From assembly GCA_011322445.1 (NCBI GenBank), contig DRMV01000008.1, positions 62,001 to 126,000 on the forward strand: a stretch of 64,000 nucleotides of DNA. Reading direction: 5' to 3'. A model generated the notes under the pieces. That model was not told where the DNA came from and searched no databases. It was given only the letters and a program-made list of their open reading frames with translations. Of this stretch, positions 5,036 to 53,541 are shown one piece after another; positions within the stretch are counted from its first letter, which is position 1; each line of letters starts with the position of its first letter. The stretch comes from Chloroflexota bacterium. GTDB lineage: Bacteria; Chloroflexota; Anaerolineae; Anaerolineales; DRMV01. The position numbers and the translations under genes were made by a program.

Positions 5036-5223
5036 ATTGTCAATCCGTTTCAAAAGGAATGCCGCCGTCCACAGCCAACTGCCGGACAGCCTTCGAATAC
5101 ACACCACAAAGCCGGCCTCGCCGAGGCCTCTTTGGGAACATGCTCATTTACATCGCAAGGGGGAAGAAGGGGGAATAGTCATCACAACATCAGCGCGCTT
5201 TTCAACCACCGCCGCGCAGCCGC

Positions 5224-5252
5224 ATTATAGCACGCCCCGAAAGGTTGTGCAA
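5224..5252 (-). promoter_or_regulatory. Promoter of rho
   Basis: On the minus strand TTGCAC, a 17-bp spacer and a perfect TATAAT. Transcription would start near 5217 and leave a leader of about 180 nt before the rho ATG, room for the autogenous control common for rho. No known leader motif was recognised. Confidence 0.65.
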
Positions 5253-5290
5253 GCATCGACGCAAGGAAAAACACAGTTTCAGCGCGATGC

Positions 5291-5319
5291 TTGACGCCCT
5301 TCCGAAAGGCTGCTATAAT
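5291..5319 (+). promoter_or_regulatory. Promoter of the initiator tRNA gene
   Basis: TTGACG, a 17-bp spacer and TATAAT lie 32 bp before the mature tRNA 5' end. It is divergent from the rho promoter, and together the two occupy the whole 315-bp gap. Confidence 0.75.
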
Positions 5320-5350
5320 TTCGCCCGCACCCGAAAGGGGCATCCAACAT

Positions 5351-5422
5351 TGCGGGGTGGAGCAGTGGAAGCTCGTCGGGCTCATAACCCGAAGGTCGCA
5401 GGTTCGAATCCTGCCCCCGCTA
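5351..5422 (+). tRNA. Initiator tRNA-fMet (CAT anticodon)
   Basis: It folds as a cloverleaf with anticodon loop CTCATAA flanked by three consecutive G:C pairs (GGG/CCC). Position 1:72 is an unpaired T.T. Both features mark initiator rather than elongator tRNA. The T arm is GCAGG-TTCGAAT-CCTGC. The D loop is short. CCA is not fully encoded (ACCTG follows). Confidence 0.92.
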
Positions 5423-5461
5423 CCTGAAAACGCCGTCCTCTCAAGGGCGGCGTTTGGCGTT

Positions 5462-6430
5462 TCAGGCATTGGCCTGATGCAACAAAGGCGCACCCCGCAA
5501 CCCGGCCAGCAAATTCGCCACCGCCACTTCGGCCATCCGGCGGCGGGTGGTGTGGGTTGCCGAACCAATGTGCGGCGTAATCAGGCAGTTTGGCAGGCGA
5601 TAAAGGGGGTGTTCAGGCGGCAACGGCTCCGGGTCCGTCACATCCAGGGCTGCCCCTGCAATCCAGCCTTCCCGCAACGCCCGCACCAGGGCTTCAGTCT
5701 GCACCACCGGCCCGCGTGCCATGTTCACCAGATAAGCGGTGGGCTTCATGCGTCGCAGGGCGGCTTCCCCTACCATGCCCCGGGTTTCAGGCGTTAGCGG
5801 CACATGCAGGCTGAGAAAATTGCTTTCGGCTAAGAGCGTCTCCCACGGCACACGTGCAGCATCCCAGGCGGCCTCGGCTTCCGGCTTCGGTGAACGGCTG
5901 GTGTAGAGAATCCGCATTCCAAAGGCATGGGCGCGGCGGGCCACAGCAGCCCCAATCTGCCCCAGGCCCAAAATGCCCAGGGTGCTGCCGTGCAATTCAG
6001 CCCCCAGCCAGGCGTCAGGGCGCCACAACCCCCAGCGGCCCGCGCGGGCATCTTCCGCCGCAGTCAACACCCCGCGCACCATCGCCAGCAAGAGGGCAAA
6101 GGTCATATCGGCCACCGCCTCGGTCAGCACCCCCGGCGTGTGTCCCACCACAACGCCTCGGCGGGAACAAGCCTCTAAATCGATGTTGTCGACCCCTACA
6201 GCAAGGTTGGAAACCACCTTCAAGCGCGGCATTTGGGCCAGCAAAGCCTCATCCACGGGGTCAATGAGCCATGTCAACAACCCTTCGACCTCGGCAAAGT
6301 AGGGCCGCAGGCTGGCATCCACACCCGCGACGTCAGCGGGGCCAATCACCAAACGCACCGCCGCGCGCAACGGCGCCACCCAGGTTTCGGGCATGGGATG
6401 TGTCAAAATCACCAGGGGCTTTTGTGGCAC
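5462..6430 (-). CDS. D-isomer-specific 2-hydroxyacid dehydrogenase (glyoxylate/hydroxypyruvate reductase-like)
   Basis: The 322-aa protein has the flavodoxin-like catalytic domain in two halves around a Rossmann NAD(P)-binding domain with LGILGLGQIGAAVARRA (about residues 148-164). The family catalytic residues are recognisable: Arg in VNMARGPVVQ, Glu in DPEPLPPEHPL and His in LITPHIGSATH. It should reduce 2-keto acids such as glyoxylate or hydroxypyruvate in the cytoplasm; the substrate cannot be read from sequence. The start gives the full family N-terminus. It is divergent from glnA. Confidence 0.88.
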   Translation of the reverse strand: MPQKPLVILTHPMPETWVAPLRAAVRLVIGPADVAGVDASLRPYFAEVEGLLTWLIDPVDEALLAQMPRLKVVSNLAVGVDNIDLEACSRRGVVVGHTPGVLTEAVADMTFALLLAMVRGVLTAAEDARAGRWGLWRPDAWLGAELHGSTLGILGLGQIGAAVARRAHAFGMRILYTSRSPKPEAEAAWDAARVPWETLLAESNFLSLHVPLTPETRGMVGEAALRRMKPTAYLVNMARGPVVQTEALVRALREGWIAGAALDVTDPEPLPPEHPLYRLPNCLITPHIGSATHTTRRRMAEVAVANLLAGLRGAPLLHQANA

Positions 6431-6492
6431 AAATCACCTCCAGAGGTGGACTTGTCGCGATTGTATCACGGCCAGCGTTTTTCTCGCTGCCC

Positions 6493-6520
6493 TTGACAAA
6501 TTCGCCATTTTCACTACAAT
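6493..6520 (+). promoter_or_regulatory. Promoter of the glnA transcript
   Basis: TTGACA and TACAAT with a 16-bp spacer. Start near 6527 would give a 5' leader of about 395 nt. Confidence 0.75.
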
Positions 6521-6526
6521 TTCCCC

Positions 6527-6921
6527 AACCTGGGGGCGGTACAACAGCATGGGAGAGTAGCGGCTGAGTCTCACGGTAGCCCGGCACGCCGCCGTGAGAT
6601 AACGAGGTGGAGGTTCCACTCCGCGAGGAGTGTGCTAACCCCGGCTTTAGGCCGGGGGAAAATCGGGTAGATCAGCGGATGCCTCCGAGGCCTGGCCACG
6701 GGCCTCCTCTTCCCCTTCAGAGCAAGAACGCACCCGAAAACCATCCGGCGACGGGCGGGACAAGGGGCGTTCAGTGGCACAGAGCGCCGCGGCGCTCTGT
6801 TGTGGTATGGAAGGGGCACCACCCGTGGGCTACCGGAAAGCCATTGTTCCGGAATGCAACCCCCAGGGGAACCCCCGCGGGGTTGTTGTGTTTTAATCGC
6901 TTCTTTCGTAAGGAGGAAACC
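6527..6921 (+). promoter_or_regulatory. Long structured 5' leader of glnA, possible riboswitch or other RNA regulator
   Basis: Between promoter and start codon lie at least four strong hairpins. They are CTCACGG/CCGTGAG (6570-6598), CACTCC-GCGA-GGAGTG with a GNRA tetraloop (6617-6632), CCCCGGC/GCCGGGG (6639-6657), and a 10-bp perfect stem with a GC centre (6779-6800, ACAGAGCGCC arm). No ORF in it has a credible ribosome site. A few stretches recall T-box signatures, but the antiterminator motif is not intact. The class is unidentified; control of glnA by nitrogen or glutamine status is inferred from position only. Confidence 0.55.
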
Positions 6922-8262
6922 ATGGCGAAGCACGAACTTCTCTCACGCGTCCAAGAAGATGGGGTCAAATTCATTTCCCTGCAATTCGTCGACGTGACAG
7001 GCGCCGTCAAGAGCGTGGATATTCCGGCCTCGCGGCTGGACGAAGCGCTGGAAGATGGCATCTGGTTCGACGGCTCTTCGGTCGAGGGGTACGCCCGCAT
7101 TCAGGAAAGCGATATGTGGCTGATTCTCAACCCCGAGACCTACGCCGTGCTGCCGTGGTCGCCGGAAGAGCGTCGCCGGGCGCGCATCTTCTGCGATGTT
7201 TATCACCCCGACGGCACACCCTTCGAAGGCGACCCCCGCGGGCGCCTCAAGCGCTACCTCCAGGCGTTGCAAGAGAAACACGGCTGGGTGTTCAACATCG
7301 GCCCTGAACCCGAGTTCTTCCTTTTCAAACGCAACGGCGGCGACGCGCTTCACCCTGTGCCTCACGATGTCGGCGGCTACTTCGACTTTTCCGCCAACGA
7401 CGAGGCCGTACGGGTACGCACCGAACTCATGGAGGCCTTGACCGGTATGGGCCTGAACGTCGAAATGGGGCACCACGAGGTCGCCCTGGGGCAGCACGAA
7501 ATTGACTTCCGCTTCGCCGATGCCCTCACCACCGCCGACAACGTCTTGACCATGAAATATACCGTCAAGGCCATCGCCCACCAGCACGGGTTGGTTGCCT
7601 CTTTTATGCCCAAGCCCATCTTCGGCATCAACGGCTCGGGAATGCACTGCCACCAGTCGGTCTTCGACACCGCGGGCGAAAACCTGTTCTACGATGCCAA
7701 TGACCCCTACCATCTTTCCAAACTGGCCTACGGCTTCATCGCCGGGCAACTGAAGCACGCCCGCGCCCTGGCCGCGGTAGTCGCCCCTACGGTCAACTCT
7801 TACAAACGCTTAGTGCCCGGCTACGAAGCGCCGGTTTACATCGCCTGGGCGCAGATCAACCGCTCGGCGCTCATCCGCATTCCGCGGTACACCCCCGGTC
7901 GTGAAAAAGCCACCCGCGCCGAACTACGCTTCCCCGACCCCTCGGCCAACCCTTACCTGGCCTTCCTGGTGATGATTGCCGCGGCGGTGGACGGCATCGA
8001 AAACGGTATCACCTGCCCGCCGCCCATGAACAACGTCAACCTCTACGAACTTTCTCCCGAAGAGCGCCGCGCCAAAGGCATCCGCGAACTGCCCGGCTTC
8101 CTGAGCGAAGCCCTCGACGAACTGGGAGCCGACACCGTGCTGCGCGAGGCCCTGGGCGACGTGCTCTACGATGCTTTCATGCGCGCCAAGCGCGCCGAAG
8201 TGGAAGCCTTCCGCATGCGCGTCACCGATTGGGAAGTGGAACGCTACCTGGAAACGGCCTAA
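6922..8262 (+). CDS. glnA: Glutamine synthetase type I
   Basis: The 446-aa enzyme condenses glutamate and ammonia using ATP. Visible hallmarks are the beta-grasp N-domain with FDGSSVEGYARIQESD, the metal-binding glutamates in GPEPEFFLFK, the ammonium/glutamate region with GINGSGMHCHQS, and RIPRYTPG. The length and absence of an obvious adenylylation-loop insertion suggest the GSI-alpha subtype, usually controlled by feedback and transcription. The ATG follows AAGGAGGAAACC. An in-frame upstream extension to 6607 runs through the structured leader and is not coding. Confidence 0.95.
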   Translation: MAKHELLSRVQEDGVKFISLQFVDVTGAVKSVDIPASRLDEALEDGIWFDGSSVEGYARIQESDMWLILNPETYAVLPWSPEERRRARIFCDVYHPDGTPFEGDPRGRLKRYLQALQEKHGWVFNIGPEPEFFLFKRNGGDALHPVPHDVGGYFDFSANDEAVRVRTELMEALTGMGLNVEMGHHEVALGQHEIDFRFADALTTADNVLTMKYTVKAIAHQHGLVASFMPKPIFGINGSGMHCHQSVFDTAGENLFYDANDPYHLSKLAYGFIAGQLKHARALAAVVAPTVNSYKRLVPGYEAPVYIAWAQINRSALIRIPRYTPGREKATRAELRFPDPSANPYLAFLVMIAAAVDGIENGITCPPPMNNVNLYELSPEERRAKGIRELPGFLSEALDELGADTVLREALGDVLYDAFMRAKRAEVEAFRMRVTDWEVERYLETA

Positions 8263-8384
8263 CCCCCCGAACCCGCCTGACCTGCCGGGCCCGGGAACCC
8301 CTCCGGGCCCGTTTGCTTTCCCAAAGCAGGCCGTTTTCTGATAAAATGAAGCAAACCACGGCAACGGCACACGCCGGAGGACTT

Positions 8385-9557
8385 ATGAGCACCTGGCCCG
8401 GAAAATTCGTCATCGGCATCACCGGCAACATCGGCACAGGCAAAAGCGTCGTCCGCAAAATGCTGGAACACCTGGGGGCCTACGGCATCGACGCCGACGC
8501 CTTAGGGCACCGCGCCATCGCCAAAGGCGCACCCGGCTATCAGCCCCTGGTAGACACCTTCGGGCAGTGGATTTTAACCCCCAACGGCGAAATCGACCGC
8601 CGCAAACTGGGACGGCTGGCTTTCGCCGACCCCGAAATCATGCGGCAACTGGAAGCCATCATCCACCCGCTGGTCGGCCAGGCCGTGGACTGGCTGGTGC
8701 GCCGCAGCCCCAAGCCGGTCATCGCTATCGAAGCCATCAAGTTGCTGGAAAGCGACCTTCGCAAACATTGCGATAGCATTTGGGTGGTCACCGCGCCCCC
8801 CGAAAAGCAACTCGAGCGGCTGCTCAAGAAACGCGGCATGACCCGCGAAGAAGCCGAACAGCGCATCAAAGCACAAGGCTCCCCGAGCGCCAAAATCGCC
8901 GCGGCCGATGTCGTGATTTACAACGACGGCTCGTTTGAAAAAACGTGGGAACAGGTCAGGAAAGCCTGGAAACTGGTGGTGCCGCAAAAAGCCGAAGGCA
9001 CCCGCCCTATCACCCTGGCCGTGCAGCGTTCCGAGGTGCTCAAACCGGGGCAAAAAGAGAAGCCCGCCACCGTGCCGTTGAAGGTCAAAAAAGCCGGCCC
9101 CAAACAGGCCGGCGAAATTGCGGCCTTCCTGAAAAAAGCCACCAACAAAGAAATTTCACGCGCCGAGGTGCTGGCTGCCTTTGGCGAAAAGGCCTACCTG
9201 CTGCTTTACCGCGGCGACGAGGTGGTGGGGCTGCTGGGATGGCAGGTGGAAAACCTGGTTTCCCGCATCAACGAATTTCACCTGCTGCCCGAGGTGCCAC
9301 TGGCAGCCGCGGCTTCGCTGATGCTGGCTGAAATGGAACGCGGCTCCAAGGAACTGCAATGCGAAGCAGCGTTGCTTTTCCTCCCCCCGGCAATGGCAAA
9401 ACAAACTGCGCTCTGGAAGCAACTCGGTTACACACCTCGCAAGCCCGAAAGCCTGGGGATGCGAGCATGGCAGGAGGCCGCCCGGGAATCGCAACCACCG
9501 GGCACCGTTTTGCTCTTCAAGCAACTTCGCCAAGATAGGGTGCTCCAGCCGCTCTAA
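8385..9557 (+). CDS. coaE: Dephospho-CoA kinase fused to a C-terminal acetyltransferase-like domain
   Basis: Residues 1 to about 205 are CoaE, the last step of CoA synthesis: P-loop GNIGTGKS (about 13-20), DADALGHRAI and the lid region KKRGMTREEAEQRIKAQ. CoaE is normally about 200 aa but this protein is 390 aa. After a Lys/Pro-rich linker, residues about 230-390 look like a degenerate GNAT-type domain (AYLLLYRGDEVVGLLGWQ, KQLGYTPRKP). Start: ATG after CCGGAGGACTT. The second-domain assignment is tentative. Confidence 0.85.
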   Translation: MSTWPGKFVIGITGNIGTGKSVVRKMLEHLGAYGIDADALGHRAIAKGAPGYQPLVDTFGQWILTPNGEIDRRKLGRLAFADPEIMRQLEAIIHPLVGQAVDWLVRRSPKPVIAIEAIKLLESDLRKHCDSIWVVTAPPEKQLERLLKKRGMTREEAEQRIKAQGSPSAKIAAADVVIYNDGSFEKTWEQVRKAWKLVVPQKAEGTRPITLAVQRSEVLKPGQKEKPATVPLKVKKAGPKQAGEIAAFLKKATNKEISRAEVLAAFGEKAYLLLYRGDEVVGLLGWQVENLVSRINEFHLLPEVPLAAAASLMLAEMERGSKELQCEAALLFLPPAMAKQTALWKQLGYTPRKPESLGMRAWQEAARESQPPGTVLLFKQLRQDRVLQPL

Positions 9558-9623
9558 ATAGCGAGGGCAGCGCCACGGCTTCCGAAATTTTGGTAGAATA
9601 AACCCGACCGCAAGCCTTTCCGG

Positions 9624-9640
9624 GGCGCCCTTGGGGCGCC
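9624..9640 (+). terminator. Possible terminator between coaE and the permease gene
   Basis: GGCGCCC-TTG-GGGCGCC is a perfect 7-bp hairpin followed by TTCACTTTTG, an imperfect T tract. Confidence 0.35.
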
Positions 9641-9682
9641 TTCACTTTTGTCTTGCTATCTTCACACACAAGGCGGTTTGCT

Positions 9683-12028
9683 ATGAGTCATGGTCGCAAA
9701 ATGTCCGTCACCCTGAGCCGCGGCATGGGGCTGATGGACGTCACGATGATTGGTGTGGGGGCAATGATCGGTGCAGGCATTTTCGGCCTCACCGGCATTG
9801 CCGCCGGCGAAGCAGGCCCCGTTGGCCTGCTGTTGGCGTTCTTCCTCAACGGCATCATCACCAGCCTCACCGGCCTTACCTACGCCGAACTCGGCTCGGC
9901 CATTCCCGAGGCAGGCGGCGGCTATCTCTGGGTGCGTCACGCCCTTTCGCGCTTCTGGGGCTTTTTTGCGGGCTGGATTTCATGGTTCAGCCACTCGGTT
10001 GCGTGCAGCCTCTATGCCGTCATTTTCGGCACCTTTTTCGTCGAACTGCTCAAACTGGGCAACATCCATTTCAGCGAAACGCCCATTTTCCTCGGCCTGA
10101 GCGTTGAAGATTTAGCCATCAAGGTCTTCGCCCTGCTGGTGGTCGCGCTGTTCATGTACGTCAACCTGAAAGGGGCTTCTGAAACCGGCACCGTCGGCAA
10201 CGTGGTGACCATTTTCAAAATCGTGGTGCTGCTGGTGCTGGTAGGCTTTGGCATCAAAGCAATGATGAACATTCCCAACTGGCCCGACCACTTCTTGCGC
10301 GACCCCAGCCCCTTCCCCCACGGCATTTGGGGGGTATTTGGCGCGATGGGGCTGACTTTCGTAGCCTTCGAAGGCTATGAAATCATCGCCCAGAGCGGTG
10401 AAGAACTGAAAGACCCCGGGCGCAACCTGCCCAAAGCCATCTTCTACTCCATCATCATCGTGGTTGCCATCTACCTGCTGGTGGCTTTCGTTGCCGTGGG
10501 CGCCCTCACCCATGCCGAAACCGGCGGTCTGCCCGCGTGGATGTACCTCGGCAAGGAAGGCGACCGCGCCATGATCCGCCTGGCGACCCACATCATGCCT
10601 TACGGCACGCTGATCATGATTCTGGGCGGCCTGGCTTCTACCATCTCGGCGCTCAACGCCACGGTGTATTCCAGTTCGCGGGTTTCCTTTGCCATGGGGC
10701 GCGGCGGCGACCTGCCCGCCCTTTTCGGGAAGGTGCACCCCCGCAACCGCACGCCTCACATGGCGATCCTTTTTAGCGGCCTGCTGATTGGCTTCATGGC
10801 CGTGGCCCTTCCGGTAGCCGACGTCGCCAGCGGGGCTTCCCTCACCTTCTTGATGCTCTTCTTGCTGACTAACATTTCCCTCATTCAACTGCGTAAAACC
10901 CAACCCGACCTGGAACGCCCCTTCAAAGTGCCGTGGGTGCCTGCGCTGCCCCTCCTCGCGATTGCCGTGCAAGGCTTCCTGGCTGTGGACCTGCTGCGCG
11001 CCAGCCCGATTGCCTGGGGTGCGACCATTCTCTGGATTTTGCTGGGCATTTATCTCTTCCGGCGCTGGGGCGGCCGCGAAGAAGCCCAGAAAGAAGCCGA
11101 CACCATTTTGCTGGAAGAGACCATCGCCGAGCGGCGCTTCTCCATTCTCGTGCCGGTGGTTTCGGCTACCGAAGGCCGAGAAATCGCCAAACTGGGCGCA
11201 ATGCTTTCCTATTATTACGATGGCGAATTGTTCGCCTTGCACGTCGTGCGGGTGCCGCACCAGTTAAGCCTGCACGATGGCCGGGCCTTCCTGAAACAAG
11301 GCCGCCCCCTGCTGGAAGCCGTGGTCGAGGTGGGACAAGAATACGATGTGCCGGTGCGCACCCAGTTGCGGCTGGGGCGCAAAGTCGCCCGCTCGATTGT
11401 GACCGCGGCGCAGGAACGCCACGCCGACCTGATGCTACTGCACTGGCCCGGCTATTCCGAAACCCGCGATGCTCACCTCGGCAGCATCATCGACGCTATT
11501 TCATCCAACCCACCCTGCGACCTGGCCGTCGTGCGGCTGGTCAAGCCCGTTACCCCGCCGCGGCGCATCCTGGTGCCTGTGGCCGGAGGGCCGCACACCC
11601 AACTGGCCGTGGAAATCGCGGTCGCGCAGGCGGTTTACACCGCGGAAAAGGCGCTCAAACCCGGCGAGCCGCCGCCCCAAATTGTGGCGCTCCACCTCGT
11701 GCCGCGCGACGGCGATATGAAAGCCGCGGAAGAACGCCAACGCGCCCTGATGGAGCAGCTGACCACCATCACCGACTTCCCAGTGGAATTGCGCATTTTG
11801 CCGGGCGACGACGTCGTGCAGGGCGTGCTTTCCTATGCGAAAGAGCGCCAGTTCGAGCAAATCGTCATCGGTGCTTCCGAAGAAGGCTTTTTAGAGCAAG
11901 CCGTCTTTGGCACCATTCCCCAACGCATTGCCCAACAGGCCGAAGTCAATGTCATCATGGTCAAACGCTACAACCCCCTCAAGCACGGGCTGCTGGGGCG
12001 CCTGAAGCGCAATCGCGAGACCCGCTAA
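9683..12028 (+). CDS. APC-superfamily amino acid permease with two C-terminal universal stress (Usp) domains
   Basis: The 781-aa protein has about 12 membrane segments in residues 1-455. The APC signature GVGAMIGAGIFGLTG sits in TM1, with FVAFEGYEIIAQSGEELKDP later. Two cytoplasmic UspA-like domains follow (about 480-610 and 625-770); the second ends with IVIGASEEGFLEQAVFGTI. APC members import amino acids or exchange them, and Usp tails are thought to sense nucleotides and gate transport. The ATG at 9683 gives the conserved N-terminus; an in-frame ATG at 9653 would add ten residues. Confidence 0.88.
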   Translation: MSHGRKMSVTLSRGMGLMDVTMIGVGAMIGAGIFGLTGIAAGEAGPVGLLLAFFLNGIITSLTGLTYAELGSAIPEAGGGYLWVRHALSRFWGFFAGWISWFSHSVACSLYAVIFGTFFVELLKLGNIHFSETPIFLGLSVEDLAIKVFALLVVALFMYVNLKGASETGTVGNVVTIFKIVVLLVLVGFGIKAMMNIPNWPDHFLRDPSPFPHGIWGVFGAMGLTFVAFEGYEIIAQSGEELKDPGRNLPKAIFYSIIIVVAIYLLVAFVAVGALTHAETGGLPAWMYLGKEGDRAMIRLATHIMPYGTLIMILGGLASTISALNATVYSSSRVSFAMGRGGDLPALFGKVHPRNRTPHMAILFSGLLIGFMAVALPVADVASGASLTFLMLFLLTNISLIQLRKTQPDLERPFKVPWVPALPLLAIAVQGFLAVDLLRASPIAWGATILWILLGIYLFRRWGGREEAQKEADTILLEETIAERRFSILVPVVSATEGREIAKLGAMLSYYYDGELFALHVVRVPHQLSLHDGRAFLKQGRPLLEAVVEVGQEYDVPVRTQLRLGRKVARSIVTAAQERHADLMLLHWPGYSETRDAHLGSIIDAISSNPPCDLAVVRLVKPVTPPRRILVPVAGGPHTQLAVEIAVAQAVYTAEKALKPGEPPPQIVALHLVPRDGDMKAAEERQRALMEQLTTITDFPVELRILPGDDVVQGVLSYAKERQFEQIVIGASEEGFLEQAVFGTIPQRIAQQAEVNVIMVKRYNPLKHGLLGRLKRNRETR

Positions 12029-15765: not shown

Positions 15766-15824
15766 AACGAAAACCCTCCGCGCGCGGCGAAGGGTTTGGG
15801 GAGTGTGCAAAGCATAGTGCTCGC

Positions 15825-15911
15825 CATCCCTCCGCCGGCATTACCCGGATCAGGTGCTACGGGTCGCGGGCTTCCGGCCCGCCTCTCAGCCCGGCAACAC
15901 CGAGCTCCCCG
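15825..15911 (-). promoter_or_regulatory. TPP riboswitch (THI element)
   Basis: The minus strand carries the invariant THI-box blocks in order: GGGGAGCTCGG, GGGCTGAGAGGC, a variable P3 hairpin (GCGGGC/GCCCGC), GACCC, ACCTGATCCGGGTAATGCC and GGCGGAGGGA. It binds TPP and switches expression of the thiN-ykoE-ykoD operon downstream. Confidence 0.96.
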
Positions 15912-15938
15912 TGCGGCAAATCGCGATCGTGTGGCCTC

Positions 15939-19330: not shown

Positions 19331-19373
19331 TGGGCGGGACAGGACTCGAACCTGCGACCTCTTCCTTGTAAGG
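19331..19373. repeat. attL: displaced 3' end of the tRNA-Val gene
   Basis: These 43 bp are identical to 53468-53510 and run from the discriminator base through the anticodon loop of tRNA-Val. Homology stops abruptly (CAGGAAT here, GAAGCGC at the intact gene), so this copy lacks the tRNA 5' half and is not a functional tRNA. Confidence 0.95.
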
Positions 19374-31387: not shown

Positions 31388-32860
31388 ATGGGCGAAACGC
31401 TGATGCGACGACTGCTCAACACGGGCATATCAGCCCACGACGCGATGGTGCTGGACGAGCACTTTGCCAGCGAGAAAGGCTTCCTGGAGGGGCTGGAAGA
31501 CGTTGCCCGCCTGTTGGCCTTCGATGGACCGGCGGGCATCCTTCCCCCCGTCGGGGAGCCGTGGCGAACGCTGTGGGAAGCCATGCAAAACGAGCCGCCA
31601 GAAGCCCGCGGCGAGGCGTTTGCCGAGGCGCTGGCCGGTTTCCCCCCAGAGGTGCAGGTGGCCATCAGCGGCGCGGTTTCCACGCGCCAGGCCGAGCTGG
31701 TGCGCTTTCAGGACGAGCTCAACAACAAGAAGCGCCGCCAGACGAAGGATTACATTCGGGCGCTGGCGAATCTGGGCTACACCTTTCGCATGAACCTGTG
31801 CGACGACAGCATTGAGGTGAGCGGTGAGCGGCTGACCGACCCACTGCGCGCCGAGATTCGGGCGAAACTGCGGGACACGGGCATTCGGGAAGTCAATGTA
31901 GCCGAGGATGCCTACATGGCCGAGGCGTGGAAGAACCGCTATCACCCCGTGCGTGATTTCCTTTTTGGCCTGAAGTGGGACGGCAAAGACCACCTGGGTA
32001 ACCTGGCAAGCCATTTTCAGGACGAGCAGGGCGTTTTTGCCATCTGGCTGCGGCGGTGGGCCATTGGCGCAGTGGCGCGGGTGATGGCCAACGGGGTGCA
32101 GAACCGAATGCTGGTGCTGGACGGGCCGCAGGGCATTGGCAAGAGTTACTTCGCCCGCTGGATCGCCAGCCCATTAGACGGCTATTTCTACGAGGGGCCG
32201 ATCAACCCCGACGACAAGGACGACCGCATTCGGTTGATGCGGGTGTGGATTTGGGAAGTGACGGAACTGGGCGCAACAACCCGCCGGGCCGACCGGGAGG
32301 CGCTGAAGGGCTTCCTGAGCCTGCGGGAAGTGACAGTGCGCAAGCCCTATGGCCGCTATGACGTGGTGAAGCCTGCGATGGCGAGTTTCATCGGGACGGT
32401 AAACAACGAAGCGGGCATTCTGACCGACTACACAGGCAACCGGCGCTTCATGGTAACGCGGCTGACGAGCATCGACTGGGGCTATACGCAACTGCGCCCC
32501 GAAGACATTTGGGCGCAGGCCACAGCGCTCTACCTGGACGGGGAGCCGTGGGAACTGACGAAGGAAGAATGGGCGAAGGCAGAGGAAATCAACGAGTATT
32601 ACACGGTGGAAGACCCGGTGCAGGGCGCGCTGCTGAAGCACTTCGAGATTGACCCCCAGCGGCAGGATTGGTGGATGGCGACGGTGGACATTGTGCGGAT
32701 TTTAGAGGCGGAAGGTTACCGATGGAGCACGCTGCGGGGCGCGAGCATGGCGATTGGGCAAGCGGCGGCGGCGCTGGGGTTGCGGAAAGCCAAAGGCAAT
32801 ACGGCATCCAAGCGAGTATGGGGCTGGTCTGGCATTCGGCAAAAGAGCGCTTTGCCGTAG
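31388..32860 (+). CDS. VapE-type replicative helicase/ATPase
   Basis: The 490-aa protein carries the virulence-associated E (VapE) domain: Walker A LDGPQGIGKSYFARWI (about residue 240), Walker B VWIWEVTEL and ASFIGTVNNEAGILTDYTGN. The N-terminal 160 residues are helical with a KKRRQTKDY stretch. The C-terminus may be a winged helix. VapE proteins act as SF3-like helicases in phages and satellite islands. Neighbouring iterons and primase support a replication role. Confidence 0.85.
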   Translation: MGETLMRRLLNTGISAHDAMVLDEHFASEKGFLEGLEDVARLLAFDGPAGILPPVGEPWRTLWEAMQNEPPEARGEAFAEALAGFPPEVQVAISGAVSTRQAELVRFQDELNNKKRRQTKDYIRALANLGYTFRMNLCDDSIEVSGERLTDPLRAEIRAKLRDTGIREVNVAEDAYMAEAWKNRYHPVRDFLFGLKWDGKDHLGNLASHFQDEQGVFAIWLRRWAIGAVARVMANGVQNRMLVLDGPQGIGKSYFARWIASPLDGYFYEGPINPDDKDDRIRLMRVWIWEVTELGATTRRADREALKGFLSLREVTVRKPYGRYDVVKPAMASFIGTVNNEAGILTDYTGNRRFMVTRLTSIDWGYTQLRPEDIWAQATALYLDGEPWELTKEEWAKAEEINEYYTVEDPVQGALLKHFEIDPQRQDWWMATVDIVRILEAEGYRWSTLRGASMAIGQAAAALGLRKAKGNTASKRVWGWSGIRQKSALP

Positions 32861-32875
32861 GAGCGAGAACCATGA

Positions 32876-33065
32876 GGTTGGACAGGTTGGACACAGGTTG
32901 GACACTTTTGAAGAGGTTACAGCGCACATTTAATAAAGAAGAGCATGTACTCTGCGTGCCCAACCTGTCCAACTTGTCCAACCTTGTTCAGAAAAAGATA
33001 AGGCACACTATCACCATAGGGGTAATTTAATGCAAAAGGTTGGACAGGTTGGACAAGGTTGGAAC
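32876..33065. repeat. Nine 9-bp iterons, candidate prophage replication origin
   Basis: GGTTGGACA occurs in three clusters of three: direct (32876, 32885, 32896), inverted (32957-32983, one or no mismatch each) and direct again (33038, 33047, 33057). AT-rich stretches (TTTAATAAAG, AAAAAGATAAG) lie between the clusters. The third cluster lies inside the primase start region. Placement between helicase and primase genes is typical of an origin. Confidence 0.7.
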
Positions 33066-34007
33066 AAAAAAGCCGCTGCGCCCCTGGCAACGGTTTACGA
33101 CTGGGCTTTGCGCTTCGTGCTGGCGGGGGTTGCGGTGATTCCTGTGCGCTATCGGGACAAGCGGCCAGCGGTGCGGGAGTGGAAAGAGTACCAGCACCGC
33201 ATACCGAGCATGGAAGAAGTGCAGCGCTGGTTTGCAGGGCGCAACATGATCAACTTTGGCGTGGTGACGGGCTGGCAAGGGCTGACGGTGCTGGACTTCG
33301 ACGACCCGCAATCTTATGCTCGCTGGCGGCACTGGGCGGCCTCTGTGGGCGGGATGGCGGCTCAGGCGGCGCAGTTAGCCTTCAAGGTGCGCACGCGCCG
33401 CGGGGTGCATGTTTATACTCGCCTGCCGCAGGCAGTGCACAACCGCCACCTGGACGGGCTGGACATCAAGAGCAAGGGCGGCTATGTGCTGGGGCCCGGC
33501 TCTACCCACCCCAGCGGGGCGCATTACACACCGCTCAGCAATGTACTGCTCTTCCCGCTGATACCGAGCCTGGATGCGATTTTACCACCGGAATTGCTGG
33601 TGCGGGCTGACTTCGGTGAGGATGCTCCGGTGCGCACGCCACCAGTTTTGCAAGCCAAGATGCAGGTTTCCGACCCGTGGGAAGCGGCTTCGGCGCCGGT
33701 GTTTGCAGGCGGCGGCGAGCAGCGGGGGCTGGTGGCGCGAATCAAAGAGCAACTGCGGATTGAGGACTTCTTCCAGCCTGACGAGTTGCAGCGCACCGGT
33801 GAGGGCTGGTATCTGGCGCGGTGCCCGTTCCACGATGACCGGCACCCGTCGTTCTGGCTGAATACGGAGCGGCAAATCGGTGGGTGCTTTGCGGGGTGCA
33901 CAGGCAAGCCGGTGGACGCGATCAACCTGTTTGCCATGCTGCATGGGCTGGACAACCGCACGGCAATTGCGGTGCTGGCCCGGCGGCTGGGGCTGAAGGA
34001 GGTGTGA
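33030..34007 (+). CDS. Bifunctional primase-polymerase with C-terminal CHC2 zinc finger
   Basis: The 325-aa protein begins with a Prim-Pol (AEP) domain (about 20-185): VIPVRYRDKRPAVREWKEYQ, GVVTGWQGLTVLDFDD, RTRRGVHVYTR and GPGSTHPSG. A CHC2-type zinc-binding region follows (YLARCPFHDDRHPSFWL, GGCFAGC). CHC2 normally precedes a primase core; here the order is Prim-Pol then zinc finger. The first 16 residues (MQKVGQVGQGWNKK) are encoded by iteron repeats and may not be essential. The ribosome site is weak. Confidence 0.83.
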   Translation: MQKVGQVGQGWNKKAAAPLATVYDWALRFVLAGVAVIPVRYRDKRPAVREWKEYQHRIPSMEEVQRWFAGRNMINFGVVTGWQGLTVLDFDDPQSYARWRHWAASVGGMAAQAAQLAFKVRTRRGVHVYTRLPQAVHNRHLDGLDIKSKGGYVLGPGSTHPSGAHYTPLSNVLLFPLIPSLDAILPPELLVRADFGEDAPVRTPPVLQAKMQVSDPWEAASAPVFAGGGEQRGLVARIKEQLRIEDFFQPDELQRTGEGWYLARCPFHDDRHPSFWLNTERQIGGCFAGCTGKPVDAINLFAMLHGLDNRTAIAVLARRLGLKEV

Positions 34008-34933: not shown

Positions 34934-34957
34934 TTTTGTCCGGTTTACGCATATTAT

Positions 34958-34973
34958 GCGGCAATTTTGCCGC
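34958..34973. promoter_or_regulatory. Hairpin and A tract immediately before the first cassette
   Basis: GCGGCAA-TT-TTGCCGC is a perfect hairpin, preceded by the palindrome GCATATTATGC and followed by TTAAAAAAATA up to the first recombination point. It is where an attI or terminator would be, but it does not match a known attI. Confidence 0.4.
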
Positions 34974-35014
34974 TTAAAAAAATAGTTGGGCGCTGTGCCC
35001 GAAAGGAGGCTTGC

Positions 35015-35176
35015 GTGTTCAGAGACCTTTCATGGAAGTCGCCAGAGGTAGTCGCATTTGCCTTCCTCATACCGATCGCTGGGTGGGTGTATGTCGCTTT
35101 TGCGCTCTATCACATTTTTGTCGTTGATAAGCGCCCAACACCGCGTGCAGCCGACCAGCCCAAGGCTGGCCGCTGA
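35015..35176 (+). CDS. Cassette 1: tiny membrane protein, 53 aa
   Basis: GTG start after GAAAGGAGG. After a short polar start comes a hydrophobic region (VVAFAFLIPIAGWVYVAFAL) long enough for one helix or a tight hairpin. The last 15 residues (RPTPRAADQPKAGR) are encoded by the attC site itself, a usual trait of cassette genes. Function unknown. Confidence 0.6.
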   Translation: MFRDLSWKSPEVVAFAFLIPIAGWVYVAFALYHIFVVDKRPTPRAADQPKAGR

Positions 35177-35191
35177 CGCTAACCGTTGGGC
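35133..35191 (+). repeat. attC site 1 (59 bp)
   Basis: R'' GCCCAAC and R' GTTGGGC bound the site. The arms GCGT-G-CAGC and GCTG-ACGC pair with an extrahelical G, then CCAGCC/GGCTGG with a CAA end loop. The crossover point is between 35185 and 35186. Confidence 0.9.
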
Positions 35192-35216
35192 GGTAAGCCC
35201 GAAAGGATGAGGCTCC

Positions 35217-35420
35217 ATGCCAGATAGCAAAACCGAAGCCATTGTGTGCCCCCATTGTGGGGCGGTGCAAGAAGCCGAGATTGTTTGGCCAGAAAAAGAC
35301 CCTTGGCCGCAGTATGCGCATGTTTGCTCGGCATGCGGCTACATCATCACAGAGTCCGAATGGTCAGCCGTGAACCGCCCAACACCGCGTGCAGCGGACT
35401 CGCCTACGGCGAGCCGCTGA
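35217..35420 (+). CDS. Cassette 2: zinc-ribbon protein, 67 aa
   Basis: ATG after GAAAGGATGAGG. Two CxxC pairs (CPHCGAVQEAE and CSACGYIITESEW) make a compact zinc ribbon, probably nucleic-acid or protein binding. The C-terminal RPTPRAADSPTASR is attC-encoded and closely resembles the tail of the cassette 1 protein. Confidence 0.65.
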   Translation: MPDSKTEAIVCPHCGAVQEAEIVWPEKDPWPQYAHVCSACGYIITESEWSAVNRPTPRAADSPTASR

Positions 35421-35435
35421 CGCTGGCCGTTAGCC
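35377..35435 (+). repeat. attC site 2 (59 bp)
   Basis: R'' GCCCAAC, R' GTTAGCC. The stem GCGT-[G]-CAGCGG-[A]-CTCGCC pairs perfectly with GGCGAG-CCGCTG-ACGC, leaving two extrahelical bases and a TAC loop, the canonical structure recognised on the folded bottom strand. Crossover at 35429/35430. Confidence 0.93.
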
Positions 35436-35461
35436 CGCAAAGAGCGGGCAAAGGAGGCGGA

Positions 35462-35698
35462 ATGTTTGTCATATTAGTGTTCGACAACAGGCGGCTTGTT
35501 AGGCTTGCTATCAGTGCCGCGACAGAGAAGGCCGCTAACCAAATATTTGGCCTTGTGCGTGACGCAATGGCGAGCGAATACACCGTAGAGATGATGCGTG
35601 CGCCGGAGAGCGGCCCCGCTTCTGTCGTCAATGCAATGATACGTAGCGGGCTAACACCCGGTGCAGCGGACGCACCTAACGGTGCGCCGCTGACCTAA
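35462..35698 (+). CDS. Cassette 3: unknown 78-aa protein
   Basis: ATG after AAAGGAGGCGGA. A beta-alpha-beta pattern (MFVILVFDNRRLVRLAISAA, IFGLVRDAMASEYTVEMMRA) suggests a small globular domain. The last 17 residues (SGLTPGAADAPNGAPLT) come from attC 3. No family recognised. Confidence 0.55.
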   Translation: MFVILVFDNRRLVRLAISAATEKAANQIFGLVRDAMASEYTVEMMRAPESGPASVVNAMIRSGLTPGAADAPNGAPLT

Positions 35699-35708
35699 AC
35701 CGTTAGGT
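35649..35708 (+). repeat. attC site 3 (60 bp)
   Basis: R'' GGCTAAC, R' GTTAGGT. The stem GGT-[G]-CAGCGG-[A]-CGCACC pairs with GGTGCG-CCGCTG-ACC around a TAAC loop. Crossover at 35702/35703. Confidence 0.93.
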
Positions 35709-35715
35709 TTCTAAA

Positions 35716-36303
35716 ATGAGCACTTACCAAGTTCTTGACGTGGCCAGCGGTGGCCGCATGTTCTGGATTGACCGCAACGACCCACGTGCAGTATTTGTTG
35801 ATAGGCGCGTGGAAACGGTGACCATGAAGGATTCGTCGGTCAAAAACAATCTTCGCACGCTGGAAGTACGCCCGATGGTACAGGCGGACTTCACAGCATT
35901 GCCGTTCCCCAGCAATCATTTTTCTCTGGTGGTATTTGACCCACCGCATCTGGTGAGCGCAGGCCCACGCTCGTGGCTGCGGGCGAAATACGGTGTGCTG
36001 GACGGTGACTGGCAAGCCATGTTGCAGGCTGGTTTCAGGGAGTGCTTCCGTGTGTTGGCCCCGTCCGGGACGCTGGTGTTCAAATGGAATGAGTATCAGA
36101 TTCCGCTTTCAAAAATTCTCCCCCTCGCGCCGGTTGCCCCATTATTTGGGCACAAAAGCGGGCGCGCCAGCAAAACACACTGGCTGGTGTTTATGAAACC
36201 TAACACCGCATTGAGCGGACTGGCTTCGCCAGCCGCTCATGCTAACCGTTGGGCGAAGGAACAGGAACACCAACAAACGGCCCTAAATCTGTGCTATAAT
36301 TAG
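35716..36303 (+). CDS. Cassette 4: class I SAM-dependent methyltransferase-like protein
   Basis: The 195-aa protein has the catalytic DPPH (FSLVVFDPPHLVSAG, about residue 80), then ECFRVLAPSGTLVFKWNEYQ and PLFGHKSGRASKTHWLVFMK, a set seen in phage and cassette-borne DNA- or small-molecule methyltransferases. The usual N-terminal glycine-rich SAM loop is not obvious (VLDVASGGRMFW may replace it). From residue about 160 the chain is encoded by attC 4, and it continues past the crossover, so its native C-terminus depends on what follows the array. Confidence 0.68.
   Translation: MSTYQVLDVASGGRMFWIDRNDPRAVFVDRRVETVTMKDSSVKNNLRTLEVRPMVQADFTALPFPSNHFSLVVFDPPHLVSAGPRSWLRAKYGVLDGDWQAMLQAGFRECFRVLAPSGTLVFKWNEYQIPLSKILPLAPVAPLFGHKSGRASKTHWLVFMKPNTALSGLASPAAHANRWAKEQEHQQTALNLCYN
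36198..36254 (+). repeat. attC site 4 (57 bp)
   Basis: R'' ACCTAAC, R' GTTGGGC. The stem GCAT-[T]-GAGCGG-[A]-CTGGC pairs perfectly with GCCAG-CCGCTC-ATGC around a TTC loop. Crossover at 36248/36249 ends the array. Confidence 0.93.
36292..36300 (+). promoter_or_regulatory. Extended -10 promoter for the lysis/late genes
   Basis: TGC directly precedes a perfect TATAAT, 38 bp after the last crossover point. No good -35 is present, as is common for extended -10 promoters. The 36304-36432 leader contains GCCGG/CCCGGC-type inverted repeats. Confidence 0.5.
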
Positions 36304-36432
36304 AACAACTGAATACTCAGCGGCATTGCCGGAGTTACGCCCGGCGTTCCTGTGTGACCTGCGTTTTGCGCGGGTTGTGCGGGAGCGTCGGGCGTTTGCG
36401 GTTTAAACGATTTGCGATTCAGGAGGTGGATT

Positions 36433-36723
36433 GTGGACATTGTTGTGAACGGTATCAACCTGATGGCTTTGGTGTTCGGTCTCGTGGAGTTTTCCAAGAA
36501 AACTGGCCTGAAGGGAAAAGCCCTAACCGTGCTGAGTATGGTTATTGGCGTGCTGGTGGGGGTTGCCTACCAAATCGCCAAGATGTACCCGGCGGTGATG
36601 CAGTGGTTTGGCGTGGCGGTTTTTGGCCTGGCCGTGGGTTTGGCGGCAAGCGGTGTTTACAGTTTTGCTAACGCGCGCTGGCCGAAGCAAGAAAAGCAAA
36701 AAGCGGATGATGAGGGCGAGTAA
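36433..36723 (+). CDS. Holin-like membrane protein
   Basis: The 96-aa protein (GTG start after CAGGAGGTGG) has two to three membrane segments (INLMALVFGLVEF, ALTVLSMVIGVLVGVAYQIA, WFGVAVFGLAVGLAASGVY) and a charged C-terminal tail (PKQEKQKADDEGE). Size, topology and position one base before the candidate endolysin gene fit a phage holin that opens the membrane for lysis. Confidence 0.65.
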   Translation: MDIVVNGINLMALVFGLVEFSKKTGLKGKALTVLSMVIGVLVGVAYQIAKMYPAVMQWFGVAVFGLAVGLAASGVYSFANARWPKQEKQKADDEGE

Positions 36724-39028: not shown

Positions 39029-39445
39029 ATGCCTGGCGGGCGGAAGACGAAGTTGAATGATGACCGAATCAAGGCCATCTGCAAGTACGTGGAGGAAGGG
39101 CTCACGTACGAGACTGCCGCGCGCCTGGCGGGGATTGACCCCGCGACCCTGCACCGCTGGCGGCGGGAGGGTGCGCAGGCGAAGCGGGGGCTGAAGAAGA
39201 AACTGGTGGAGGAATTGGAGGTCGCCAACGCGAAGGCCCAGCGGAAGCTGGTGCGGCAGGTGAAGAAGGAGAAGGGCGGGGCGAAGTGGATTTTGGAGCG
39301 GCGGTGGCCGAAGGATTGGGGCACACGGCTGGATGTGCAGTTCGAGGGCCAGCCGTTGCAACGTGTGGTGCTGGATCTTTCTCAGGTGCCAGAGGAGCAG
39401 TTGCGTCGATTTCTGGCAACCGCATTTGCGGAGGTGCAGAAGTGA
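39029..39445 (+). CDS. Terminase small subunit
   Basis: The 138-aa basic protein has an N-terminal helix-turn-helix (LTYETAARLAGIDPATLHRW) that would read the packaging site. A Lys-rich helical middle (KRGLKKKLVEELEVANAKAQ) and a C-terminal tail to contact the large subunit follow. Ribosome site TTAGGAGGTTAGGCGG is strong. Its stop overlaps the large-subunit GTG. Confidence 0.8.
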   Translation: MPGGRKTKLNDDRIKAICKYVEEGLTYETAARLAGIDPATLHRWRREGAQAKRGLKKKLVEELEVANAKAQRKLVRQVKKEKGGAKWILERRWPKDWGTRLDVQFEGQPLQRVVLDLSQVPEEQLRRFLATAFAEVQK

Positions 39446-40893
39446 ACGCCCCTATTGCCCCTAACTGGCGCACTTTGCGGCAATTGCCGCCCCAGGCTGC
39501 AGTTGCGGCGATGGAATTGGCGCGTCGGCATGTGGGCGACTTCGCTTCGTTTACGTGGGCTGATGTGCATCGCCCACTGCTGATGACGCCCTTCCACCGC
39601 AAACTTGCCGAGATTCTGGAACAGGCGGCAGAACGGCGGCAAAACATCATACTGAGCACGCCGCCGCAGCATGGCAAGAGTACCTTCGTTTCCGTGGCGT
39701 TCCCGGCGTGGTGGCTGGGGCGTCATCCGGGCGATTCGGTGATTTTGACTTCGTACGCTGCGTCATTGGCGTACCGCAACAGCCGGGCGGTGCGGGATGT
39801 GGTGGAGGGCGCGGCGTTCCGGGTGCTATACCCCGATGTGGGCACCGACCCAGCCTCGCGGGCAGTCGATGCGTGGAAACTGGCCCCACCACACACGGGG
39901 CAGGTTGTGGCTGCAGGTGTGGGCGGCCCCATTACGGGGCACGGTGCCGAGTTGGGTATTATCGACGACCCATTCGAGAACTGGATGCAGGCGCAGTCCA
40001 AAACCTACCGCGACCGCGTGTGGGACTGGTTCAAGGGCACTTTCCGCACGCGCATTCACGAAAACGGCGTGATGGTGCTGATTTCTACCCGCTGGCACCC
40101 TGACGACTTGATTGGGCGATTGCTGAAGCATCAGCCGGAGCGGTGGGTTTATTACAACTTCCAAGCTGTGTACGAGGGAAATTGCGGGCGTGACGACCCG
40201 TTGGGCCGCAAAATAGGCGAGCCGTTGGCGCCAGCGCTGTATTCCCTCGAGGCTTTACGGAGCATTGAAGAGGATGTTGGCCCACGTGTGTGGGAAGCGG
40301 AATACCAGGGATGCCCGATGAGCGTTTCGGAAGTGCTGCTGGATGTTTCCAAACTGCAGATAGAGGACGATGTGCCAGATAACGTGAAGATGCGCTATGC
40401 CGTGCGCTATTGGGACCTGGCAGCGAGCGACGCGCCGGGGTCGTCGTATACCACGGGGTTGAAACTGGGCGTGGACGAGCGCGGCGAGTGGTGGGTGCTG
40501 GATATTGCCCGCACGCGCTCGCTGTGGCCGCAGACGCGCGAGATGGCACGGCAAACGCTGCTGAAGGACGGCCCCAGCGTGGTGCAGGGTATTGAGAACG
40601 TAGGCTTCCAGCGGGCCGCTTACGACGACCTGCGGTCGCTGGCGCCGGAAGGATACAAGATTCGCAGGGTGAAGGTCGTTGGCGACAAGGCATCGCGGAC
40701 GGTGTATTTTTCGGGGCCGTTGGCGGCAGGGAAGATCCATGTACTGCGAAGACCGTGGACGCAGGCGTTTCTGGACGAGTTACGTGAGTTCCCGCATGGA
40801 GCGAACGATGACCAAGTGGATGCGCTTTCGGGAGCGGCGTATATGTTACGGCGGCAAACGCCCCAAAAGGCACGCAGCCGCTCATGGGCATGA
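39442..40893 (+). CDS. Terminase large subunit
   Basis: The 483-aa packaging motor has an N-terminal ATPase with Walker A-like STPPQHGKST (about residue 70) and Walker B ELGIIDDPFEN. The RNase-H-like nuclease follows with acidic motifs YWDLAASDAPG and NDDQVDALSG. It translocates and cuts DNA into procapsids. GTG start inside the small-subunit stop is preferred; an in-frame extension to 39286 overlaps terS. Confidence 0.93.
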   Translation: MNAPIAPNWRTLRQLPPQAAVAAMELARRHVGDFASFTWADVHRPLLMTPFHRKLAEILEQAAERRQNIILSTPPQHGKSTFVSVAFPAWWLGRHPGDSVILTSYAASLAYRNSRAVRDVVEGAAFRVLYPDVGTDPASRAVDAWKLAPPHTGQVVAAGVGGPITGHGAELGIIDDPFENWMQAQSKTYRDRVWDWFKGTFRTRIHENGVMVLISTRWHPDDLIGRLLKHQPERWVYYNFQAVYEGNCGRDDPLGRKIGEPLAPALYSLEALRSIEEDVGPRVWEAEYQGCPMSVSEVLLDVSKLQIEDDVPDNVKMRYAVRYWDLAASDAPGSSYTTGLKLGVDERGEWWVLDIARTRSLWPQTREMARQTLLKDGPSVVQGIENVGFQRAAYDDLRSLAPEGYKIRRVKVVGDKASRTVYFSGPLAAGKIHVLRRPWTQAFLDELREFPHGANDDQVDALSGAAYMLRRQTPQKARSRSWA

Positions 40894-52193: not shown

Positions 52194-52467
52194 ACGATTG
52201 CATACCCCAAAGGCGCATCAGCCCAAGCCCCAGCAGCCGCGTAAGCGGCCTCGCCCGCGCGGGTGGCATGATTGGATAGAAGAGAAGCGGCGTGAGGCTG
52301 AGAGCGGCAAGCGCTCCCACGGACGTGCAGTGGTGCATGTTGTAAAGGAGCCACTGCCGCAGCAGAAATATAACCGCGCGAAATGGCGGAAAATGACCGT
52401 GGCCGAGCGTGTGGATGCGATTGCGGAGCGATTGGGGCTGTTAGAGCCGCCAGCGGTCGACGGGTGA
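52186..52467 (+). CDS. Small very basic protein, 93 aa
   Basis: Lys/Arg/Pro/His-rich (TPKAHQPKPQQPRKRPRPRG) with a helical C-terminus (MTVAERVDAIAERLGLLEPP). It could bind nucleic acid. It overlaps the previous gene by 8 bp and the convergent integrase end by 27 bp. Confidence 0.5.
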   Translation: MAKRLHTPKAHQPKPQQPRKRPRPRGWHDWIEEKRREAESGKRSHGRAVVHVVKEPLPQQKYNRAKWRKMTVAERVDAIAERLGLLEPPAVDG

Positions 52468-53385
52468 GGCGCGGCGGTGGGCAGTTTTGACATCGGCCTG
52501 GGCGATTTCCAAATAGCGCTCCACCATCGTTAGCGTGCGGTGTCCAAGAATGCGCTGTAGGGTGAACACGTCGCCGTTGTTGCGTAGGTATTCAATTGCA
52601 AAGGTATGCCTGAAACGGTGGGGGTGAACATTAGGCACGCTGGCGCGTTCACCCAAGCGGTTGAGAAGTTGACGGAGGCCATGCCGGTCAAGGGCGTGGT
52701 CTTCGGTTTTGTCTACGAAGAGAGAGAGGCTATCGGGGTCAGGGTCTTCTTTGGTGTCGGTACGGCTGGCGATGTAATGCCACAGGGCACGGCGGGTGCG
52801 GTTGCCGATAGGAAGCACGCGGGCACGTGATTTTTCGCCGGAGCCGTAGGGGCGGATGATGATTTCGCCGTTGTCCAGATCCACATCGCCGAGGGTAAGG
52901 CGAGCGGCTTCGGAAATGCGGATGCCGGTATCAAGGAGCAAGAGGATGAGAGCACGGTCACGCTTAGCAGTGGAGCGCGGCATAGTGAACGAGCGGCGGT
53001 GCTGAGTATTGGCGGGGGCGGTGCGGCTGCAAGCGTCCAGCAGTTTGCTGATTTCCTCATGGGTGAGGGGGTGGATGACGCGGTTGGCGCTTTTGGGAGC
53101 GGGGATGGCAAGAGAGGGGTTGAGAATGTTGAACTCAGACGCCGCCCAGCGAAAGAAGGAGCGGATGCCCGTCCAGAAGCGGCGAACGCTGGACGAGGCG
53201 TGCGACTGCCCCCAGTAGGCGAGGAAGGCCTGCAGGTCGGCGGTGGTAATGGCGGTAACATCGGGGTCGTTGAGATACTCGGCAAGGCGGCGGATGGTGT
53301 ATTTGTGCAGTTGCACGGTATGAGGAGAGCGACCGGCGGCGAGCATATAGATTTCAAACCCTTTGGTTGCTTCTGTTAAATGCAT
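52441..53385 (-). CDS. int: Phage tyrosine-recombinase integrase
   Basis: The 314-aa protein has an N-terminal SAM-like core-binding domain (TVQLHKYTIRRLAEYLNDPD) and a catalytic domain with Arg in DTGIRISEAARL, HPHRFRHTF, GHRTLTMVERYLEIA (His and nucleophilic Tyr). It should recombine attP with the tRNA-Val attB. It lacks the extra helix region typical of integron integrases. Start ATG at 53385 follows AGGGAGCG; the longer frame runs into the tRNA. Dyad sites flank its start. Confidence 0.93.
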   Translation of the reverse strand: MHLTEATKGFEIYMLAAGRSPHTVQLHKYTIRRLAEYLNDPDVTAITTADLQAFLAYWGQSHASSSVRRFWTGIRSFFRWAASEFNILNPSLAIPAPKSANRVIHPLTHEEISKLLDACSRTAPANTQHRRSFTMPRSTAKRDRALILLLLDTGIRISEAARLTLGDVDLDNGEIIIRPYGSGEKSRARVLPIGNRTRRALWHYIASRTDTKEDPDPDSLSLFVDKTEDHALDRHGLRQLLNRLGERASVPNVHPHRFRHTFAIEYLRNNGDVFTLQRILGHRTLTMVERYLEIAQADVKTAHRRASPVDRWRL

Positions 53386-53386
53386 A

Positions 53387-53398
53387 GAGATGCGCTCC
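53387..53398 (+). promoter_or_regulatory. Candidate integrase arm-type site, right copy a
   Basis: GAGATGCGCTCC overlaps the integrase ribosome site, so binding here could also repress integrase synthesis. Confidence 0.55.
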
Positions 53399-53424
53399 CT
53401 GGTTGAGGGGGGTGCGGCTACCTC

Positions 53425-53467: not shown

Positions 53468-53510
53468 TGGGCGGGACAGGACTCGAACCTGCGACCTCTT
53501 CCTTGTAAGG
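53468..53510. repeat. attR: phage-borne copy of the tRNA-Val 3' half
   Basis: Identical to attL over 43 bp. It restores an intact tRNA after integration; the junction lies in the anticodon loop, the usual crossover region for tyrosine recombinases in tRNA genes. Confidence 0.95.
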
Positions 53511-53541
53511 GAAGCGCTCTAACCAGCTGAGCTACCCGCCC
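53468..53541 (-). tRNA. tRNA-Val (TAC anticodon)
   Basis: A regular 74-nt cloverleaf: acceptor GGGCGGG/CCCGCCC with discriminator A, D stem GCTC/GAGC, anticodon stem CTTCC/GGAAG with loop CTTACAA, T stem GCAGG/CCTGT (one G.T pair). CCA is not encoded. Its 3' half comes from the prophage. Confidence 0.95.

Follow-up and report, generated by a model that had tools for sequence, protein, structure and literature searches.

Prophage and array location

The window, i.e. the whole stretch of 64,000 nucleotides that was analysed, comes from a Chloroflexota bacterium of the class Anaerolineae and contains a 34.1-kb element (19331-53510) bounded by exact 43-bp direct repeats in a tRNA-Val gene. The left repeat, attL (19331-19373), is a copy of the tRNA-Val 3' end; attR (53468-53510) is the same 43 bp within the 3' part of the tRNA gene (53468-53541, minus strand). 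A phage tyrosine integrase gene (52441-53400, minus strand) adjoins the tRNA-Val gene and does not encode an integron integrase (IntI), as it scores 60.9 bits with TIGR02249, for which the cut-off is 265. The plus strand carries genes for a replicative helicase (31388-32860, phrog_1313), a Prim-Pol or primase (33030-34007, by protein family matches), a holin (36412-36723, phrog_1299) and the terminase large subunit TerL (39286-40893, phrog_38); repressor, exonuclease, portal, capsid and tape measure genes complete the set. With integrase, att repeats and structural, lysis and replication genes all present, the element is confirmed, as far as sequence can do so, as a temperate prophage. A cassette array lies 3' of the replication genes and 5' of the holin gene, at the end of the early and the start of the late (lysis, packaging) genes. 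This agrees with the first-pass annotation, which had placed an array between the replication and lysis genes of an otherwise complete temperate phage.

Upstream of the Prim-Pol gene, 32958-33054 shows GGTTGGACAAGTTGGACAGG units repeated in both orientations, possibly origin repeats. A hairpin of the form GGAGTT-CGCCCG...CGGGCG precedes the holin gene (36325-36395, plus strand), and similar stretches, judged by eye, occur in related phages, giving five in all with L187 (2410-2470), L196 (6130-6200), L217 (9438-9500) and L188 (2150-2205). It is possibly a late-operon leader RNA.

The attC sites

Four attC sites, all on the plus strand, are found within 35133-36254 and bound four one-gene cassettes: attC1 (35133-35191), attC2 (35377-35435), attC3 (35649-35708) and attC4 (36198-36254), which ends the array. 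They form direct repeats in register (n=4; spacings 244, 272 and 549) and align with a mean column identity of 79%. R'' (YYAAC) and R' (GTTRGS) boxes with the G|TT crossover are present in all four. The sites also have bulged bases, which the earlier annotation had described as conserved extrahelical bases (G or T, then A in sites 2-4). The four bottom strands fold better than shuffled sequences (z from -3.6 to -4.7; -4.2 for attC1), and no U-tract follows the stems. The array limits proposed earlier, 34985-36254, are correct, with 34985 being the G of the G|TTGGGC that precedes cassette 1 and 36254 the R' end of the last attC.

A covariance model made from the window's four attC sites (R1) returned no others from the 2.63-Mb host assembly, where the best match after them has an E-value of 0.63. 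Across the order, 51 of 201 genomes contain similar sites by R1, about 98 in total, which gives the background rate. A further model (R2) was built from 40 sites with an E-value below 0.001 in other genomes of the order, without a row from the window. The window's sites were the top four R2 matches in 683 kb (65.5, 71.6, 69.0 and 62.6 bits for attC1 to attC4; E 5e-13 to 6e-11), where R2 is not fully independent since its training sites were gathered with the window-derived R1. Standard pairs make up 95% of the pairs in the training sites, and double-sided changes number 174 versus 54 in shuffles. R2 also detects, more weakly, sites in the published phage integrons of TJE1, M16-3 and MW202573. 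Rfam gave no match to the array at gathering scores, a distant-DNA search with the array against a phage collection found none, nor did an attC-arm pattern search of IMG/VR.

By alignment, folds and model scores, the four repeats are confirmed as attC sites; that they define four cassettes in one orientation had been claimed in the first-pass annotation, which named failure of attC models as one outcome that would refute it, and the models score all four. Having four attC sites in one orientation, when at least two define a CALIN, and no TIGR02249 match above the cut-off on its contig, the array qualifies as a CALIN. That label, used from the start, may be too weak, since a probable attI is present (see below).

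Cassettes and their genes

Each cassette consists of one plus-strand ORF with its own start. Cassette 1 (ORF 35015-35176, 53 aa) apparently encodes a single-helix membrane protein, cassette 2 (35217-35420, 67 aa) a zinc-ribbon-like protein and cassette 3 (35462-35698, 78 aa) an orphan. Cassettes 1 and 3 gave no convincing protein family match; a search of 50,697 phage records yielded nothing related to cassette 2, and cassette 3 has no relative among phage records or in the 399 other genomes of the order. The ORF of cassette 4 (35716-36303, 195 aa) reads through attC4 and encodes a DNA methyltransferase of phage family phrog_954 (7.4e-66), relatives of which are encoded in 238 IMG/VR stretches. 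An attC-like site lies beside such a relative in one of the 80 IMG/VR loci examined, the other 79 being without. Where cassettes are identifiable, here and in the phages below, they often encode phage-type genes such as DNA methyltransferases and PAPS reductase.

In the single positive IMG/VR locus, phage L094, the attC-like site (3473-3541, E 5e-5) is directly 3' of the methyltransferase gene. Whether the methyltransferase cassettes share one origin was tested by a tree, in which the window, L187 and L094 proteins do not form one clade, although the window protein, a long branch, is of unsure placement. A short R'-box hairpin directly 5' of the ribosome-binding site opens about 7 of 12 phage cassettes versus 4 of 32 other cassettes, in a post hoc search; examples are window 34986-35007, 35187-35208 and 35431-35453, L217 6210-6235 and L187 ~670-690.

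Arrays in related phages

Of the 400 genomes of the order, 28 encode a TerL relative. In four of these (G000, the host, and G116, G024 and G368) terL is preceded on its own strand, at a distance of no more than 5 kb, by two or more attC sites. Leaving the host aside, three of the other 27 have an array: G116:C159 (L187), G024:C89 (L188) and G368:C186 (L192). The remaining TerL-bearing stretches that were scanned have no such array upstream of terL. IntI is encoded in each of the four array-bearing genomes.

L187 (contig RFKO01000176.1 of an Anaerolineae MAG) has the order attC, methyltransferase (54% identical to that of cassette 4), attC, followed by homologues of g34214, holin, g37652, g39029 and TerL. 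The g34214 homologue adjoins the holin gene in both L187 and L196, with no array between them. The array is upstream of the g34214 homologue in L217 and L187 and downstream in the window, and because it can be on either side the slot is a region rather than one exact site. The second cassette of L217 ends in half an attC. A search of related prophages, as had been suggested earlier, yielded different cassettes (L217) and a g34214-holin junction free of an array (L187, L196). A precisely empty site in a close relative was not found; IMG/VR returned few relatives when queried with the portal, the terminase and g37652. The cassette genes do not behave as ordinary core genes devoid of gain and loss, since relatives differ in cassette content.

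A putative attI

The IMG/VR phage L217 shares a left array boundary with the window. Its boundary (6181-6216) falls inside a 57-nt match to the window (81%, blastn E 1e-6). The L217 array begins after TTATGCGGCGAATTGGTCGCTTAAAAATAG|TTAGGC, the window counterpart being TTATGCGGCAATTTTGCCGCTTAAAAAAATAG|TTGGGC. Both phages are conserved up to the same G|TTRGGC crossover, in the window at 34985/34986, and have a different first cassette and ORF beyond it. An attI would be expected to show just this, a conserved sequence as far as the crossover and exchanged sequence after it, which makes 34954-34991 (plus strand) a probable attI.

The site also resembles attI1 of class 1 integrons, the letters of which were verified in plasmids. 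In both, a GTTAYGCRGC motif stands 32 nt ahead of G|TTRGGC and an A-rich tract is present, at similar spacing. With 18 of 32 identities, the window site is the closest to attI1 among 190 GTTRGGC sites, the next having 15, apart from that of L217, for which a single 2-nt gap was allowed and placed post hoc. Unlike attI1, the phage site is not adjoined by an intI. Two related phages and a moderate resemblance to attI1 are suggestive of a phage-borne attI, not proof. The left-boundary pattern had no match in the 400 genomes or IMG/VR beyond the window and L217, and candidates for the host's own attI, sought upstream of intI in family members, differ among themselves, none clearly matching the phage site.

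Integron integrase in the host

IntI was called when TIGR02249 scored above the cut-off of 265 bits. Neither the prophage nor the window's contig has a match over this cut-off, hence there is no adjacent intI as in a complete integron. The absence of an integron integrase noted in the first-pass annotation holds for the prophage and its contig; it has to be corrected for the genome, as the host has an intact intI in trans on another contig (G000:C31:1471-2418, 459.6 bits), adjoined by one attC (C31:449-582, R2 58.1 bits). IntI over the cut-off is encoded in 7 of 18 members of the host's family.

The chromosomal attC sites of this family mostly measure ~131-135 nt (~134 nt for the host's own), versus 57-60 nt in the phage. 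In view of this gap the window cassettes do not seem to have been copied recently from the array of the host itself, and the phage sites may usually be served by an IntI other than the host's. The sedentary chromosomal integrons of the family (e.g. G013, with 19 attC matches) do share with the phage array the attC core motifs GCGTGCAGC-GAC and GCCGCTGACGC, and their IntI is of the TIGR02249 family. They differ in being chromosomal, in attC length (~133 nt) and, where the arrangement is visible, in that intI and the array, which is upstream of it, are divergently oriented.

Phages that carry their own intI

Complete phage integrons, with a true intI and attC arrays beside phage genes, were found in G024:C89, G368:C98 and Rctr41k, with IntI scores of 383-421 bits against the cut-off of 265. 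In G024:C89 there is a 4-nt overlap between the start of intI (420.8 bits) and the upstream gene, and the cassettes, which include PAPS reductase, methyltransferase and phrog_874 genes, follow in the same direction. Of the three IntI proteins, that of G024 was seen to have the IntI-specific insert and the catalytic residues. G024:C89 lacks an end overlap that would indicate circularity, its first bases being a repeat of a cassette located close to the opposite end. Having cassette sequence at both ends, the contig would represent a permuted phage genome, presumably a circular one to judge only from the gene order of Rctr41k. In G368:C98, TerL, intI and four attC sites follow in succession on one strand.

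Rctr41k (KX853513.1, L249) is a GenBank virus of 41 kb, with intI at 4680-5678 (383 bits), six attC sites at 6636-10105 (46-60 bits) and a terminase downstream at 17410. Its record annotates intI as 'xerD' or 'integrase-like protein' and leaves the integron (4680-10105) unannotated, which shows that phage integrons sit unlabelled in public records. A tRNA-Thr and a tyrosine integrase are common to Rctr41k and G024:C89. Like the window phage, Rctr41k has its attC array before the lysis and terminase region; unlike it, it has its own intI, its attC sites are ~137 nt long and its proteins are ~30% identical to those of the window phage.

The IMG/VR contigs L231, L233 and L234 have an intI beside a phage integrase gene, in the neighbourhood of genes for lysis, tail or terminase functions; attC sites were detected in L231 and L233 and none in L234. 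In an IntI tree with narrow sampling of chromosomal IntI, the proteins of G024 and G368:C98 pair (94/86), apart from Anaerolineae chromosomal IntI, and several IMG/VR IntI form a clade (99/96). L229 (G368:C173, 838-6195), in which an intI adjoins genes of a phage family (phrog_2045) and a partition gene of the ParM type, may be an integron-bearing phage-plasmid.

Discussion

The integron cassette machinery is best known for spreading antibiotic resistance and has been studied as a bacterial device. The prophage-borne array had at first been taken to be apparently without precedent. This does not stand, since phage integrons and CALINs as a kind have already been published: Qi et al. 2023 (PMC9892861) described integrons or CALINs in 21 phages, including methyltransferase cassettes, with as cases Vibrio phage p16, Shewanella prophage M16-3 and the virulent phages TJE1, P12002L and PH101, and showed that five of six virulent-phage attC sites tested are recombined by IntI1. 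The present phages resemble those in having attC arrays with or without intI and DNA methyltransferase cassettes. The published cases are scattered, whereas the phages of one Anaerolineae order have their arrays repeatedly in the same region, with a putative phage attI and, in related phages, an intI in a phage operon. A literature search, with most subscription journals and preprints outside its scope, returned this one directly relevant paper on phage integrons; as far as could be checked within that scope, the recurrent slot, the candidate phage attI, the phage-operon intI, the distinct phage IntI branches and the unlabelled Rctr41k integron are new.

We consider it quite probable that the prophage is an integron platform lacking an integrase of its own, which combines an attI-like site and four cassettes and relies on IntI in trans for cassette capture and transfer. 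In the mechanism we propose, whose activity, direction of exchange and benefit to the phage we infer, an IntI of the host or of a co-resident integron phage would act during lysogeny or infection. It would recombine the folded bottom strands of attC, by which cassettes would be excised as circles, to be inserted either between attC sites or at the attI of the phage. In this manner small genes, some of them useful to the phage, e.g. an anti-restriction methyltransferase, would be collected and taken into new hosts. Phage integrons that do encode intI are the probable ancestors of the array or its partners in cassette exchange.

The same array could instead be a piece of a chromosomal one, acquired on a single occasion through homologous recombination or an imprecise excision, that has stayed inert ever since. 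This is how Qi et al. 2023 (PMC9892861) account for the Vibrio anguillarum phages, and it would fit a prophage without intI whose host and relatives have chromosomal integrons; yet the family's arrays have attC sites of more than twice the length of those in the phage, L217 has this left boundary but another first cassette, several phages have an array in the corresponding region and the gene of cassette 4 belongs to a phage family, all of which renders such passive capture improbable. Loss of intI from an ancestral phage integron, leaving a decaying remnant on which nothing now acts in trans, is suggested by the relatives with complete integrons and by the half attC that ends the second cassette of L217. 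We regard this too as unlikely for the window phage, as its four attC sites are intact and so is the IntI in the same host. That the cassettes are ordinary phage accessory genes, with hairpin terminators resembling attC by convergence, might be thought from the frequency of the methyltransferase family in phages without attC, i.e. the 79 IMG/VR loci mentioned above. Conserved R''/R' boxes, bulged bases, covariation, model scores like those of arrays that adjoin intI and stems that lack a U-tract contradict it, which leaves it a very small probability.

The platform reading may be part of something wider. We give about an even chance to the idea that some phage lineages have long possessed integrons as a regular part of their genomes, with a phage-type IntI and an attI at the early/late junction, phage-useful cassettes circulating between phages and intI-less members using the IntI of a host or co-resident phage in trans. 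The recurrent slot, the phage attI and intI in phage operons would then make phages users, not mere carriers, of cassette recombination. If true, phage cassette recombination would open a between-species route for cassettes, and phage integrons would offer an explanation for phage-type genes such as those for methyltransferases and PAPS reductase in cassettes.

Three minor observations concern the host genome. Its flank at 15810-15921 of the window contains a TPP riboswitch. A second terminase gene (G000:C21:81019-82494), 38% identical, probably belongs to another prophage, and a weak attC-like match (C21:62844-62978, E 0.01) lies 18 kb from it.
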